From: Ensifer sp. WSM1721
GTDB taxonomy: Bacteria; Pseudomonadota; Alphaproteobacteria; Rhizobiales; Rhizobiaceae
Length of the DNA stretch: 64,000 bases
Assembly: GCF_000513895.2 (NCBI RefSeq)
Contig: NZ_CP165783.1
Span: forward strand, 62,001-126,000
Direction of reading: 5' to 3'
Shown one piece after another: positions 19,115 to 34,084 of this stretch. The notes beneath the pieces are model-generated. The model was not told the DNA's origin. It saw only the letters and a program-made list of their open reading frames with translations, and did not search any database. Every line of letters begins with the position of its first letter. Within the stretch, counting starts at the first letter, position 1. The translations under genes were made by a program, and so were the position numbers.

Positions 19115-20041
19115 TCATGCCTTCGCCACCACCGCCTCCGCCGCCTCGCGGATCGTCTGCATCAGGATCGAGAGCGGCAGGGAGGGGATTGCGTCGGTGC
19201 GCATTGTGAGGCCCACCGGCCCCTTGGTTTCGCTGGTGTCGAGGGGCAGGGTCGAAAACAGGCCGTCCTCGATGTCGGTGGCGACGACGCCGCTGGAGAT
19301 GATCCAGATGGCATCGCTCGAGCGGACGAAAGCGCGGCCGAAGGAGTCGGAGACGGTTTCGATCTGGTTCGGCAGGCCGGCAATGCCGTTGGTGATCAGG
19401 AAGCGCTCGACGAAGGGGCGGATGATCGAAGCGCGCGTCGGCATCAGCACCGGATAGTCGCCGAGATGCGCAAAGACCGATTGCTTGCCGGAAAGCAGCG
19501 GATGACCGGCGCGAACGGCAAAGACGACCTGCTCGGAATAGAGGTGTTCGAAGGAGAAGCCGGTCATCCTGTCGGGGGCGGCGAGCCTCCCGACGACGAG
19601 GTCGAGGTCGCCGACGCGCAATTGTTCCAGCAGCACTGCATTTTCGCCGGTCACGATCTTGACGCGGGCGCCGGTCTTCTCCTTGAGGAAGAGCGCGATG
19701 GCGCCAGGCATGATGCGGGTCGAGACGGTCGGTAGCGCACCGATGCGGAGCGGCGGGCCGTCGCCAGAACGCTCCTGCGAGACGGAATCGAGGCCCTGGC
19801 GAAGCGCGGTCAGCGCAGCGCCGGCATGCCGCAGGAAGACCTCGCCGTAGCGCGTGATCCTGATGCCGCGCCCGTCGCGCTCGAAGACGGCAACGCCCAG
19901 CACCTCCTCCAGCTCGCGGATCGTCTTGGTAACCGCCGGTTGGCTGACACGCAGGAGTTCAGCCGCCTTTACCACGCTCTTCTGGCGTGCAACCTCGACA
20001 AATGTCTGCAGATGGCGAAACTTCACGCGGGCGTCGATCAT
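19115..20041 (-). CDS. pcaQ: PcaQ, LysR-type activator of protocatechuate catabolism
   Basis: A 308-residue LysR-type regulator with an N-terminal winged helix-turn-helix (VKAAELLRVSQPAVTKTIREL, about 24-44) and an effector-binding domain ending with LPLSILMQTIREA. It is divergent from pcaD, and the 93 bases between them hold the PcaQ operator. In S. meliloti and Agrobacterium PcaQ activates pcaDCHGB in response to beta-carboxy-cis,cis-muconate or gamma-carboxymuconolactone. A truncated second copy of its first 120 codons exists 11.8 kb away. This copy looks intact and should serve both operons. Confidence 0.92.
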   Translation of the reverse strand: MIDARVKFRHLQTFVEVARQKSVVKAAELLRVSQPAVTKTIRELEEVLGVAVFERDGRGIRITRYGEVFLRHAGAALTALRQGLDSVSQERSGDGPPLRIGALPTVSTRIMPGAIALFLKEKTGARVKIVTGENAVLLEQLRVGDLDLVVGRLAAPDRMTGFSFEHLYSEQVVFAVRAGHPLLSGKQSVFAHLGDYPVLMPTRASIIRPFVERFLITNGIAGLPNQIETVSDSFGRAFVRSSDAIWIISSGVVATDIEDGLFSTLPLDTSETKGPVGLTMRTDAIPSLPLSILMQTIREAAEAVVAKA

Positions 20042-20937
20042 TATCTATAACCTTCAGGTTAATGAAAAGCCATGAAATATCATTTTACCTAACCGGATGA
20101 AACAGCCAATTTGGTGAGGAGGAGGAGGAGAGCCGTGCAGTTCGCCCGTATCAACGACATCACGACCCACTATCGGCTGGTTGGCGCCGTCGCGGGAAAG
20201 CCCGTGCTCGTCCTCATCAATTCGCTCGGCACGGACTTTCGCATCTGGCGCGACGTCGTCGTGCGGCTGGCCGCCGATTTTGCGATCGTCCTTTACGACA
20301 AACGCGGCCACGGCCTTTCGGAGATCGGCCAGGTTCCCTATTCGATCGAGGACCATGCGACCGATCTCGCCGGCCTTCTCGACCGGCTCGCCGTGAAGCG
20401 GGCGATCGTCTGCGGCCTCTCCGTCGGCGGCCTCATTGCACAGTCGCTCTACCAGCGCCGACCCGATCTGGTGCGCGCGCTCGTGCTTTGCGATACCGCG
20501 CACAAGATCGGCACGGCGGAGATGTGGGATGCCCGCATCGCCGCGATCGAGGCGCATGGGCTCGAGGCGATCGCCGACGGCGTGCTCGAGCGCTGGTTCA
20601 CGCCGGCTTTCCGCCGGCCCGAGAACGCCGCCTTCGTCGGCTACCGCAACATGCTGATCCGTCAGCCGGTTGCGGGTTACCTCGGCACCTGCGCCGCCAT
20701 CCGGAACGCCGATTACACCGACGCTGCCGGCAAGATCGCCGTACCGGTGCTCTGCGTCGTCGGCGACCAGGACGGCTCGACGCCGCCGGACGTGGTGCGC
20801 TCGACGGCCGCTCTCATTCCCGGCGCGCGCTTCGAAGTGATCCGCGATGCCGGGCATATTCCCTGTGTCGAGCAGCCGGAGGCCCTGACCCGGACGCTCG
20901 GCAGCTTTTTCAGATCCTTGCTGGAGACAAACCATGA
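19676..20937. repeat. Duplicated pcaQ-pcaD block, copy 1
   Basis: From within pcaQ to the end of pcaD the sequence is repeated in the same orientation at 31498-32757. Most of pcaD is identical by eye, while pcaQ and both ends show scattered differences. One GAG unit is missing before pcaD in the other copy. The two copies bracket the shikimate module and could recombine to delete it. Confidence 0.9.
20047..20062. promoter_or_regulatory. PcaQ operator, copy 1
   Basis: ATAACC, TTCA, GGTTAA: an exact match to the ATAACC-N4-GGTTAA site reported for PcaQ in S. meliloti, placed between the divergent pcaQ and pcaD starts and 72 bases before the pcaD start codon. Confidence 0.88.
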
Positions 20938-20941
20938 GTGA
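20135..20941 (+). CDS. pcaD: 3-oxoadipate enol-lactonase (copy 1)
   Basis: A 268-residue alpha/beta hydrolase. The nucleophile elbow is CGLSVGG with Ser96, the acid is in VGDQDGSTPP and the base is the His of DAGHIPC. It hydrolyses 3-oxoadipate enol-lactone to 3-oxoadipate in the beta-ketoadipate pathway. GTG 20135 is chosen because a run of GGAGGAGGAGGAG ends a few bases before it and the protein then begins MQFARINDI like known PcaD; the ATG-type extension upstream only translates the ribosome binding site. pcaC starts 8 bases before its end. An almost identical second copy starts at 31954. Confidence 0.93.
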   Translation: MQFARINDITTHYRLVGAVAGKPVLVLINSLGTDFRIWRDVVVRLAADFAIVLYDKRGHGLSEIGQVPYSIEDHATDLAGLLDRLAVKRAIVCGLSVGGLIAQSLYQRRPDLVRALVLCDTAHKIGTAEMWDARIAAIEAHGLEAIADGVLERWFTPAFRRPENAAFVGYRNMLIRQPVAGYLGTCAAIRNADYTDAAGKIAVPVLCVVGDQDGSTPPDVVRSTAALIPGARFEVIRDAGHIPCVEQPEALTRTLGSFFRSLLETNHE

Positions 20942-21338
20942 CGCTTTCGCGCCCTCCGACCGCTATCGCCAAGGGATGGCGACCCGCCGTGCCGTCCTCG
21001 GTGACAATCACGTCGACCGCGCTCAGTCCGCCTTGACCGATTTCGATCGACCCTTCCAGGAACTGATCACGGAAGCCGCCTGGGGGCATGTCTGGGCGCG
21101 TCCCGCCTGGACGAAGCGCGAGCGGTCGATCGTCACCATCGCGCTGCTTGCGGCCCTCGGCCAGGACGAGGAGGTGGCGATGCATGTCCGAGCGACGGCC
21201 AATACGGGAGCCACCCCGGAGGACATCTCAGAGGCGCTCCTGCATGTGGCGATCTATGCCGGGGTGCCCGCGGCCAACCACGCCATCAAGATCGCCAAGC
21301 GGGTTCTCGGCGAGATGGACGCCGGCAAGTCAGCCTGA
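20934..21338 (+). CDS. pcaC: 4-carboxymuconolactone decarboxylase
   Basis: A 134-residue AhpD-fold protein with the family pattern FDRPFQELITEAAWGHVW, REKS-type RERSIVTIALLAAL, HVRATANTGATPEDISEALLHVAIYAGVPAANHA. It converts gamma-carboxymuconolactone to 3-oxoadipate enol-lactone, the substrate of PcaD. Its start overlaps the end of pcaD by 8 bases and pcaH follows after 17 bases with its own GGGAGAG. The only intact copy in the window; the second pca block keeps just its first 30 codons or so. Confidence 0.93.
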   Translation: MSDAFAPSDRYRQGMATRRAVLGDNHVDRAQSALTDFDRPFQELITEAAWGHVWARPAWTKRERSIVTIALLAALGQDEEVAMHVRATANTGATPEDISEALLHVAIYAGVPAANHAIKIAKRVLGEMDAGKSA

Positions 21339-32847: not shown

Positions 32848-32946
32848 CACCGCGTCGAGGTGCTTGTCGCGGGCGGCGAGCCGCCTAATTATGTTTCCGA
32901 CATTTACCTCCAGGGCGAGAAGAAAACTGTCTTCCTGGACATCTGA
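32848..32946 (+). pseudogene. 3' remnant of pcaG
   Basis: The segment encodes VEVLVAGGEPPNYV and then LQGEKKTVFLDI before a TGA, clearly the end of a PcaG protein (the intact one ends LQGEKETAFLDI). It is joined directly to the pcaC remnant, so one deletion removed most of pcaC, all of pcaH and most of pcaG. The residues differ enough from the intact pcaG to suggest a different source or older divergence. Confidence 0.82.
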
Positions 32947-33028
32947 TCGTTCGGCAGCCGATCCCCGCGTTGCCGCGTGCTTGTGAGACTTTCCCGATCC
33001 TAGGGAAGCGAGACGCTGGAGATGCGGC

Positions 33029-34084
33029 ATGACCTATTCGGCCTTTGATCACCCCTATCTTTCCGGCCTTCTCGGCGACGAGGCGGTAGCGGCGGAGTTT
33101 TCCGTCGCCGCCGATATCCGCGCCATGCTCGCTTTCGAAGCCGCGCTTGCGCGCGCCGAGGCGCGTCACGGCGTCATTCCGGACGCGGCGGCCGACCGTA
33201 TCACTGCGGCTTGCCGTGCCTTTTCCCCTGATGTCGCGGCCTTGCGCCGCGCCACTGCGGCCGACGGCGTCGTCGTGCCAGAGCTCGTCCGGCAATTGCG
33301 CGCCGCCGCCGGCGAGGAAGCGGCGGAGTATGTGCATTTCGGCGCCACCAGCCAGGATGTCGTCGACACCAGCCTCATGCTGCGGCTGAAGGCGATCGCC
33401 GAGCTGTTCTCCGGCCGCCTTGGGGGGCTGGTCGCGGCGCTAGAGGACTGCGATCGGCAATGGGGCGAGCGTCCGCTGACCGGACATACCCGCATGCAGG
33501 CGGCAATCCCGATCACGGTTGGCGATCGTCTGCGCAGCTGGATCGAGCCGCTGCTCGACCACCAGGACCGGCTCGACGCCATCGAAGGCGATCTTTTCGC
33601 AGTACAGTTCGGTGGGGCGGCCGGCACGCTGGACAAGCTCGGCGACAAGGCGGACGCCGTGCGCGAAACGCTGGCGGAGGAACTCGCGCTTATCGACTGG
33701 CCGCAATGGCACAACCAACGCTCCGCCATAGCCGATTTCGCCCATCTGCTGTCATTGATCACCGGGAGCCTCGGCAAATTCGGCCAGGACGTGGCCTTGA
33801 TGGCCCAGGTGGGCGAGGAGATCGTTCTTGCCGGCGGCGGCTCCTCCTCGGCCATGCCGCACAAGCAAAATCCGGTGGCGGCGGAGGTGCTCGTCACGCT
33901 CGCTCGGTTCAATGCCACGCAGATCTCCGCAATCCACCAGGCGCTCGTTCATGAGCAGGAACGCTCGGGCTCCGCCTGGACGCTGGAATGGCTGATCCTG
34001 CCGCAGATGGTCGGTGCCACGGCAGCGGCATTGAGGCTCGCCAGCGAGCTTGCCGGCAACGTCCGGCGGCTGGGGCGCGTTTGA
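33029..34084 (+). CDS. pcaB: 3-carboxy-cis,cis-muconate cycloisomerase
   Basis: A 351-residue protein of the fumarase/aspartase superfamily, the usual rhizobial PcaB length. It shows VHFGATSQDVVDTSLML, TGHTRMQAAIPITVGDRL and the superfamily signature GGGSSSAMPHKQNPV. It turns beta-carboxy-cis,cis-muconate into gamma-carboxymuconolactone, the substrate of PcaC. GGAGA lies 7 bases before ATG 33029. It is the only complete pcaB and completes the pathway whose other steps are encoded 11 kb upstream. It ends 19 bases from the convergent treY. Confidence 0.93.
   Translation: MTYSAFDHPYLSGLLGDEAVAAEFSVAADIRAMLAFEAALARAEARHGVIPDAAADRITAACRAFSPDVAALRRATAADGVVVPELVRQLRAAAGEEAAEYVHFGATSQDVVDTSLMLRLKAIAELFSGRLGGLVAALEDCDRQWGERPLTGHTRMQAAIPITVGDRLRSWIEPLLDHQDRLDAIEGDLFAVQFGGAAGTLDKLGDKADAVRETLAEELALIDWPQWHNQRSAIADFAHLLSLITGSLGKFGQDVALMAQVGEEIVLAGGGSSSAMPHKQNPVAAEVLVTLARFNATQISAIHQALVHEQERSGSAWTLEWLILPQMVGATAAALRLASELAGNVRRLGRV

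Follow-up and report, generated by a model that had tools for sequence, protein, structure and literature searches.

The window analyzed here is a 64,000-nucleotide stretch of Ensifer sp. WSM1721 (NZ_CP165783.1, positions 62,001 to 126,000) on contig C2 (1.70 Mb) of a four-contig, 6.33-Mb genome, which its relatives place in the genus Sinorhizobium/Ensifer. Between window positions 19115 and 34084, the pca genes for protocatechuate degradation are present as two incomplete copies. Copy 1 (19115-22936) comprises complete pcaQ, pcaD, pcaC, pcaH, and pcaG, followed by the last 168 bp of pcaB that can still be aligned. Copy 2 (31498-34084) retains pcaQ only as its first 122 codons, along with an intact pcaD, 80 bp of pcaC, 129 bp around the 3' end of pcaG, and a complete pcaB. 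The two are separated by about 8 kb with a LysR gene, genes for a branched-chain-type ATP-binding cassette (ABC) transporter, a gene of the shikimate dehydrogenase family, and a QuiC-like gene. The features are listed by window coordinates, with a strand where one applies and the evidence in parentheses (ORF, open reading frame; dN/dS, ratio of nonsynonymous to synonymous substitution rates).

19115..20041, minus strand: pcaQ copy 1, 308 amino acids, the only complete PcaQ at the locus (TIGR02424, 441.7 bits versus a cut-off of 303.8)
20047..20062: PcaQ-type box ATAACC-N4-GGTTAA upstream of pcaD copy 1 (0 mismatches)
20135..20941, plus strand: pcaD copy 1, GTG start chosen by us, longest ORF from 20111 (TIGR02427)
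20191..20920: 730-bp tract identical to 32010-32739, putative gene conversion tract (copy alignment and random placement test)
20934..21338, plus strand: pcaC (TIGR02425)
21356..22105, plus strand: pcaH (TIGR02422; dN/dS to Ensifer aridi 0.079)
22115..22729, plus strand: pcaG (TIGR02423; dN/dS to E. aridi 0.077)
22769..22936, plus strand: 168-bp pcaB 3' remnant of copy 1 (93% identity to 33901-34068; same scar on E. aridi contig C39)
23104..23997, plus strand: LysR-type regulator of the module (Pfam HTH_1 and LysR_substrate; 94% amino acid identity to S. americanum)
24115..25244, plus strand: ABC solute-binding protein gene with a frameshift from a 10-nt deletion that follows codon 63 (alignment to the open S. 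americanum and E. aridi genes)
25302..26180, plus strand: LivH-type permease (95% amino acid identity to S. americanum, full length)
26177..27148, plus strand: LivM-type permease (96% to S. americanum)
27145..27888, plus strand: LivG-type ATPase (96% to S. americanum)
27892..28611, plus strand: LivF-type ATPase (96% to S. americanum)
28612..29445, plus strand: shikimate dehydrogenase family protein, AroE-like, below equivalog cut-offs (Shikimate_dh_N)
29442..31337, plus strand: QuiC-like 3-dehydroshikimate dehydratase fused to a domain like 4-hydroxyphenylpyruvate dioxygenase (NF042435, below cut-off; AP_endonuc_2 and Glyoxalase_5; PDB 5hmq match)
31360..31497: remnant of the 3' end of an ISL3-family insertion sequence, where the module meets pcaQ (83-86% to the termini of transposase copies of the ISL3 family, contigs C3 and C4)
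31498..31863, minus strand: truncated pcaQ copy 2, first 122 codons, within the 128-residue ORF 31477-31863 (ORF list, copy alignment; 171.9 bits versus a cut-off of 303.8)
31869..31884: PcaQ-type box upstream of pcaD copy 2 (0 mismatches)
31954..32757, plus strand: pcaD copy 2 (TIGR02427, 377.3 bits versus 255.85)
32765..32844, plus strand: 5' remnant of pcaC; 1-nt gap close to its start (copy alignment)
32854..32982, plus strand: pcaG 3' remnant, in frame to its stop (copy alignment and reading frame)
33029..34084, plus strand: intact pcaB, the only complete copy at the locus (NF004631, 599 bits versus 371; TIGR02426, 407 bits versus 355.75; dN/dS to E. aridi 0.063)
34104..36833, minus strand: malto-oligosyltrehalose synthase gene treY, a right flank common to S. 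meliloti (genome comparison)

ORFs, NCBIfam profiles, and the copy alignment confirmed the two broken pca copies that a sequence-only reading of this DNA had described. That reading had made no mention of the pcaD identity tract, the insertion sequence remnant, the frameshift in the binding-protein gene, or a pcaQ scar that lies outside the window. PcaQ, PcaD, PcaC, PcaH, PcaG, PcaB, and the second PcaD all exceeded their NCBIfam equivalog cut-offs. By gene order, pcaD, C, H, G, and B do not form one transcription unit; C-H-G stand with copy 1 and B with copy 2, and the pathway now seems to rely on both. Within the locus it is true that, pcaD apart, each gene of the pathway has survived once; the genes for the later steps (pcaF and those of the CoA-transferase) are located outside the window, at about C2:37.3-41 kb. 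The locus is an operon duplication with differential loss. A literature search found no paper on it, which is not proof that none exists, and known RNA families gave no match at the gathering score between 15 and 40 kb of the window.

The motif ATAACC-N4-GGTTAA, which from the S. meliloti literature we take to be the PcaQ-type box, has two perfect sites in the 64 kb, at 20047 and 31869, each upstream of a pcaD. No further box with up to two mismatches was found in the window. An identical box is present upstream of S. meliloti pcaD. Copy 1 carries the PcaQ equivalog divergent from pcaD; the truncated gene of copy 2 still encodes the first 122 residues of PcaQ, including the DNA-binding domain. 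Most likely, pcaB is read from the second pcaD promoter, and we infer that pcaD was kept twice for this reason.

The deletions were traced in 33 genomes of the genus. pcaC-H-G and pcaB lie side by side in 30 of them among the matches listed, 29 being counted by eye from match rows and one (G012) at a second locus, with reading frames checked in only some. The three genomes without adjacent C-H-G-B are the present one, E. aridi, and G030, which is 70% complete. In E. aridi LMR001 (G004), C-H-G, the pcaB remnant, and the module are contiguous with 95.4% identity to this strain, and the pcaC and pcaG remnants, pcaB, and treY are contiguous with 94% identity. Both deletion scars are common to E. 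aridi; therefore, the reciprocal loss is older than the species split and is not an assembly error. Duplication, or gain of a second locus, followed by reciprocal loss, as the sequence-only reading had it, is thus backed by synteny. Its other element, the tight bracket around the module as the starting arrangement, found no such support: the E. aridi module is followed by other DNA, and that genome has two pcaQ 3' ends in differing contexts. The head-to-tail placement appears to be secondary.

All eight genomes mapped across the region have the order FtsK/sigma block, pcaF block, ggt, pcaQ-D-C-H-G, pcaB (gene names from S. meliloti; ggt is inverted in G015, and the partly covered G020 was left out). 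The present genome retains the order FtsK/sigma-pcaF-ggt-pca, with insertions. A 172-bp pcaQ scar was found at C2:22026-22197, 59 kb upstream, between the sigma block and an inserted block. At the same spot on E. aridi contig C32, a short stretch that also matches the end of the pcaF block at 87% is followed by a pcaQ 3' end, where the contig stops. The scar shares 103 bp with copy-2 pcaQ, as would fit two pcaQ copies better than a single one that was cut. In the same region, pobA, kept by E. aridi between ggt and pcaQ, has been lost cleanly here (window 19070/19071); a divergent pobA (77% at the amino acid level) is located at C2:49167.

The dN/dS values listed above reveal purifying selection on pcaH, pcaG, and pcaB, the surviving pca genes tested. 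Against E. aridi, the module genes for the regulator, permeases, and ATPases gave 0.055-0.081, the dehydrogenase gene 0.171, the QuiC-like gene 0.152, and treY 0.296. For truncated pcaQ copy 2, five nonsynonymous and six synonymous changes could be assigned with only five ungapped outgroup rows, too few to judge selection.

Alignment of 19676-21025 with 31498-32844 gave 96.4% identity; counting gaps, 49 columns differ. The copies have not diverged evenly: the difference is about 5% in pcaQ, 19% for what remains of pcaC, 20% for what remains of pcaG (80% identity of 22637-22763 to 32854-32982), and 7% for the pcaB remnant (22769-22936 versus 33901-34068). The pcaD copies share 730 bp without a difference, whereas their flanks have diverged by 6 and 19%. 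When the 49 differences were placed randomly, none of 20,000 trials yielded a run of this length (largest, 343 bp). The tract is far longer than the flanking divergence allows, and its plain reading from the alignment is recent gene conversion between the pcaD copies. E. aridi contigs C41 and C32 break off at one shared position in pcaQ, and contigs C39 and C34 do so at one shared position in pcaC. The pcaQ-to-pcaC stretch between these ends is absent from that draft, in which the copies may have been collapsed over about 1.6 kb. The contig ends may thus reflect near-identity of the pcaD region in that species too; they are consistent with it but do not prove it.

We consider the following history likely as a whole. 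In an ancestor common to E. aridi, a second pcaQ-pcaDCHGB segment, with a shikimate-type module on its 3' side, would have come to lie beside the sigma block. Redundancy would then have permitted differing losses, with one copy keeping C-H-G minus most of pcaB and the other keeping pcaB minus C-H-G. Each half-operon would need its PcaQ-driven promoter, and pcaD, being promoter-proximal, would have been retained in both, with the single complete PcaQ serving both promoters in trans and the pcaD copies exchanging sequence through gene conversion. Later, and in this strain, the simplest course is that unequal exchange between the pcaQ-D repeats together with two deletions brought the halves head to tail around the module. 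One of these deletions would end at the 138-bp ISL3-family remnant, and the pcaQ scar would have been left behind 59 kb upstream.

Several observations weigh against this history. Relative to copy 1, the remnants of pcaC and pcaG have diverged by 19-20%, close to genus-level divergence, while the pcaB remnants differ by 7%; all are short (80-168 bp), and their comparison with relatives points both ways. Of the pca genes, the dN/dS values cover pcaH, pcaG, and pcaB; the E. aridi draft lacks pcaQ and pcaD. The LMR001 draft breaks at the pcaQ-D repeat, and its four ends may join in more than one way; ggt-pcaQ-D-C-H-G-module is a possible order, but the alternative joining keeps the ancestral one. 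Trees of C-H-G, pcaB, pcaQ, and pcaD (27-30 rows each) put this lineage on its own long branch without a firm sister and gave C-H-G of copy 1 no firm place. Because the divergence of the remnants is uneven, a tandem duplication is not clearly favored over a xenologous second operon, and the second segment may be either a tandem copy or derived from another lineage.

A foreign origin of copy-1 pcaC-H-G, with the copy-2 remnants as the resident genes, is possible, although we hold it to be less probable. The copy-2 pcaG remnant is nearer to S. saheli (G019) than copy-1 pcaG is (89.1 versus 84.3%), and on average it is nearer to the fredii group, the meliloti group, and G017. However, only a 127-bp remnant is compared, the order is reversed for several genomes in part-length alignments (e.g. 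80.9 versus 77.7% for G005 and 78.5 versus 74.8% for G010), and the full C-H-G tree has no supported foreign placement. Such an origin is compatible with the history of duplication and loss proposed above, which is silent on the source of the second copy.

It is unlikely that a circular molecule carrying pcaQ-D-C-H-G, the pcaB end, and the module, either excised upstream or newly arrived, entered the resident pcaQ-D by one crossover, with the losses following or already present. Integration of this kind would give the order seen, in which two hybrid copies enclose the module, and the module is found at other sites, among them a conjugative S. americanum plasmid. Simple excision, however, would not be expected to produce the 103-bp overlap of the upstream scar and copy-2 pcaQ, and arrival in this strain alone is excluded by the presence of both deletion scars in E. 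aridi. A misassembled repeat is very hard to credit: a repeat does exist and E. aridi draft contigs break at it, but 49 columns distinguish the copies, the E. aridi assembly has both deletion scars as well, and an insertion sequence remnant occupies the module/pcaQ junction, a junction that rests on this assembly alone.

The DNA between the copies had been interpreted as a module for import of a hydroaromatic acid and its conversion to protocatechuate. The gene set for the importer is incomplete in this strain. The 10-nt deletion leads to a stop at codon 68 of the binding-protein gene; the rest of the module is open, and the same gene is open in both E. aridi and S. americanum. The QuiC-like protein scored 692.8 bits versus the NF042435 cut-off of 1200 (the query began at 29400), and its residues 1-619 of 631 match PDB 5hmq, named 4-hydroxyphenylpyruvate dioxygenase there. 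The best NCBIfam score of the dehydrogenase was 159.6 bits versus a cut-off of 252. As both proteins fall below their cut-offs, a shikimate-type substrate is likely but not proven. The binding protein was also considered as a possible ortholog of S. meliloti PcaM, from the protocatechuate transporter PcaMNVWX. In tblastn with the S. americanum binding protein, 914 of 919 plasmid records stayed below 60% identity, and S. meliloti reached 24-30% among the best 60 of the 919; PcaM itself was not compared.

Among the matches listed, nine of the 33 genomes, including this one, contain the 8.2-kb module, and in seven of the nine it lies apart from pca. The module on S. americanum plasmid A has the same eight genes in the same order (86% DNA identity), and S. 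fredii strain records align over the same length at 86%. In these species it occupies a separate locus, with an open binding-protein gene in S. americanum, whereas here it stands beside pca and that gene is frameshifted. The conjugative S. americanum plasmid carries insertion sequences nearby. A composite transposon would have two matching insertion sequences around the module; in the present strain, the 138-bp ISL3 remnant was seen on the right only, and on the left a stretch of about 150 bp separates the module from the pcaB remnant.

The sequence-only reading had also proposed that reciprocal loss locks the module in place, recombination between the pcaD repeats destroying either C-H-G or B. 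This was partly right. Such recombination would lose C-H-G and the module but would always keep pcaB. Recombination between the pcaB 3' repeats would delete the 5' part of pcaB and hence lose that gene. The in-frame pcaG 3' remnant contains 93 coding bases that are 80% alike, with a longest exact run of about 19 bp by eye, and recombination there could restore the ancestral whole operon and drop the module. The lock would hold for the best-matched repeats and be leaky in principle. We doubt that the split is a selected, self-stabilizing state and rate this as quite improbable. It would mean that two half-operons under one regulator hold the module, since both best-matched removal routes lose an essential gene; conversion would keep the promoter-pcaD units alike, and the copy-2 PcaQ fragment, which bears the helix-turn-helix, could have a damping effect on both promoters.

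Partly lost pca loci in which pcaD stays were also found beside ggt in other Sinorhizobium genomes. G012 has pcaD-pcaB without C-H-G (C1:710658-712663), pieces of pcaD and pcaB are spread over two contigs in G030, and in G001, G021, and G024 pcaD is alone among the pca proteins tested. Unlike at the present locus, a complete D-C-H-G-B set elsewhere covers the loss in G012 and G001, and no PcaQ-type box (fewer than five mismatches) was found in the 145-232 bp upstream of the ggt-side pcaD in any of the five. For the latter reason, these loci resemble copies in decay rather than halves that complement each other. pcaD has thus been kept at more than one decaying locus; the case described here is less exceptional for that, and the pattern gains in interest.

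The pcaDCHGB operon of S. meliloti pSymB resembles this locus in gene order, divergent pcaQ, the box upstream of pcaD, and treY after pcaB. It differs in being a single intact operon; a QuiC-type gene lies next to its pcaQ, and the 36 kb seen contain no comparable transporter module, whereas here the operon is split with 8 kb of module between the halves. The pca-qui supra-operonic cluster of Acinetobacter likewise has hydroaromatic genes beside pca, and its near-identical duplicated catabolic genes catIJ and pcaIJ are kept alike by recombination; we know of no reciprocal loss there between two copies of the same operon.

Fusion of replicons by crossover at pca was considered and dropped, because other genomes show the block order seen here to be ancestral. 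Furthermore, the block at 169-181 kb that stands beside the module in E. aridi is widespread and highly similar, so its position says little. This block of about 11.6 kb (C2:169329-180960, outside the window) carries genes for an intradiol dioxygenase and for proteins of the FAA-hydrolase and HpcH/HpaI families. Inspection by eye added an ABC transporter of the amino-acid type and another gene resembling shikimate dehydrogenase, and showed no transposase among the ORFs of at least 240 amino acids. It is 94-97% identical over at least 7 kb in 22 of the 33 genomes (own included, among the matches listed), at differing places. The identity of pca is 82-86%. The block looks like a spread catabolic island. 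Within the window, a TfuA-related gene (193.5 bits, below the cut-off of 235.2) overlaps a YcaO-type gene at 37484-39779 on the minus strand, possibly a peptide-modifying pair; the block containing them (37380-44242) is absent from this place in E. aridi.

The locus would represent an operon caught in the middle of being split through duplication and reciprocal loss, with scars, conversion tract, and rearrangement still legible and with another arrangement of the same pieces in the sister species E. aridi. It may make it possible to test how two redundant operons come to depend on each other and how conversion keeps promoter-proximal genes alike.

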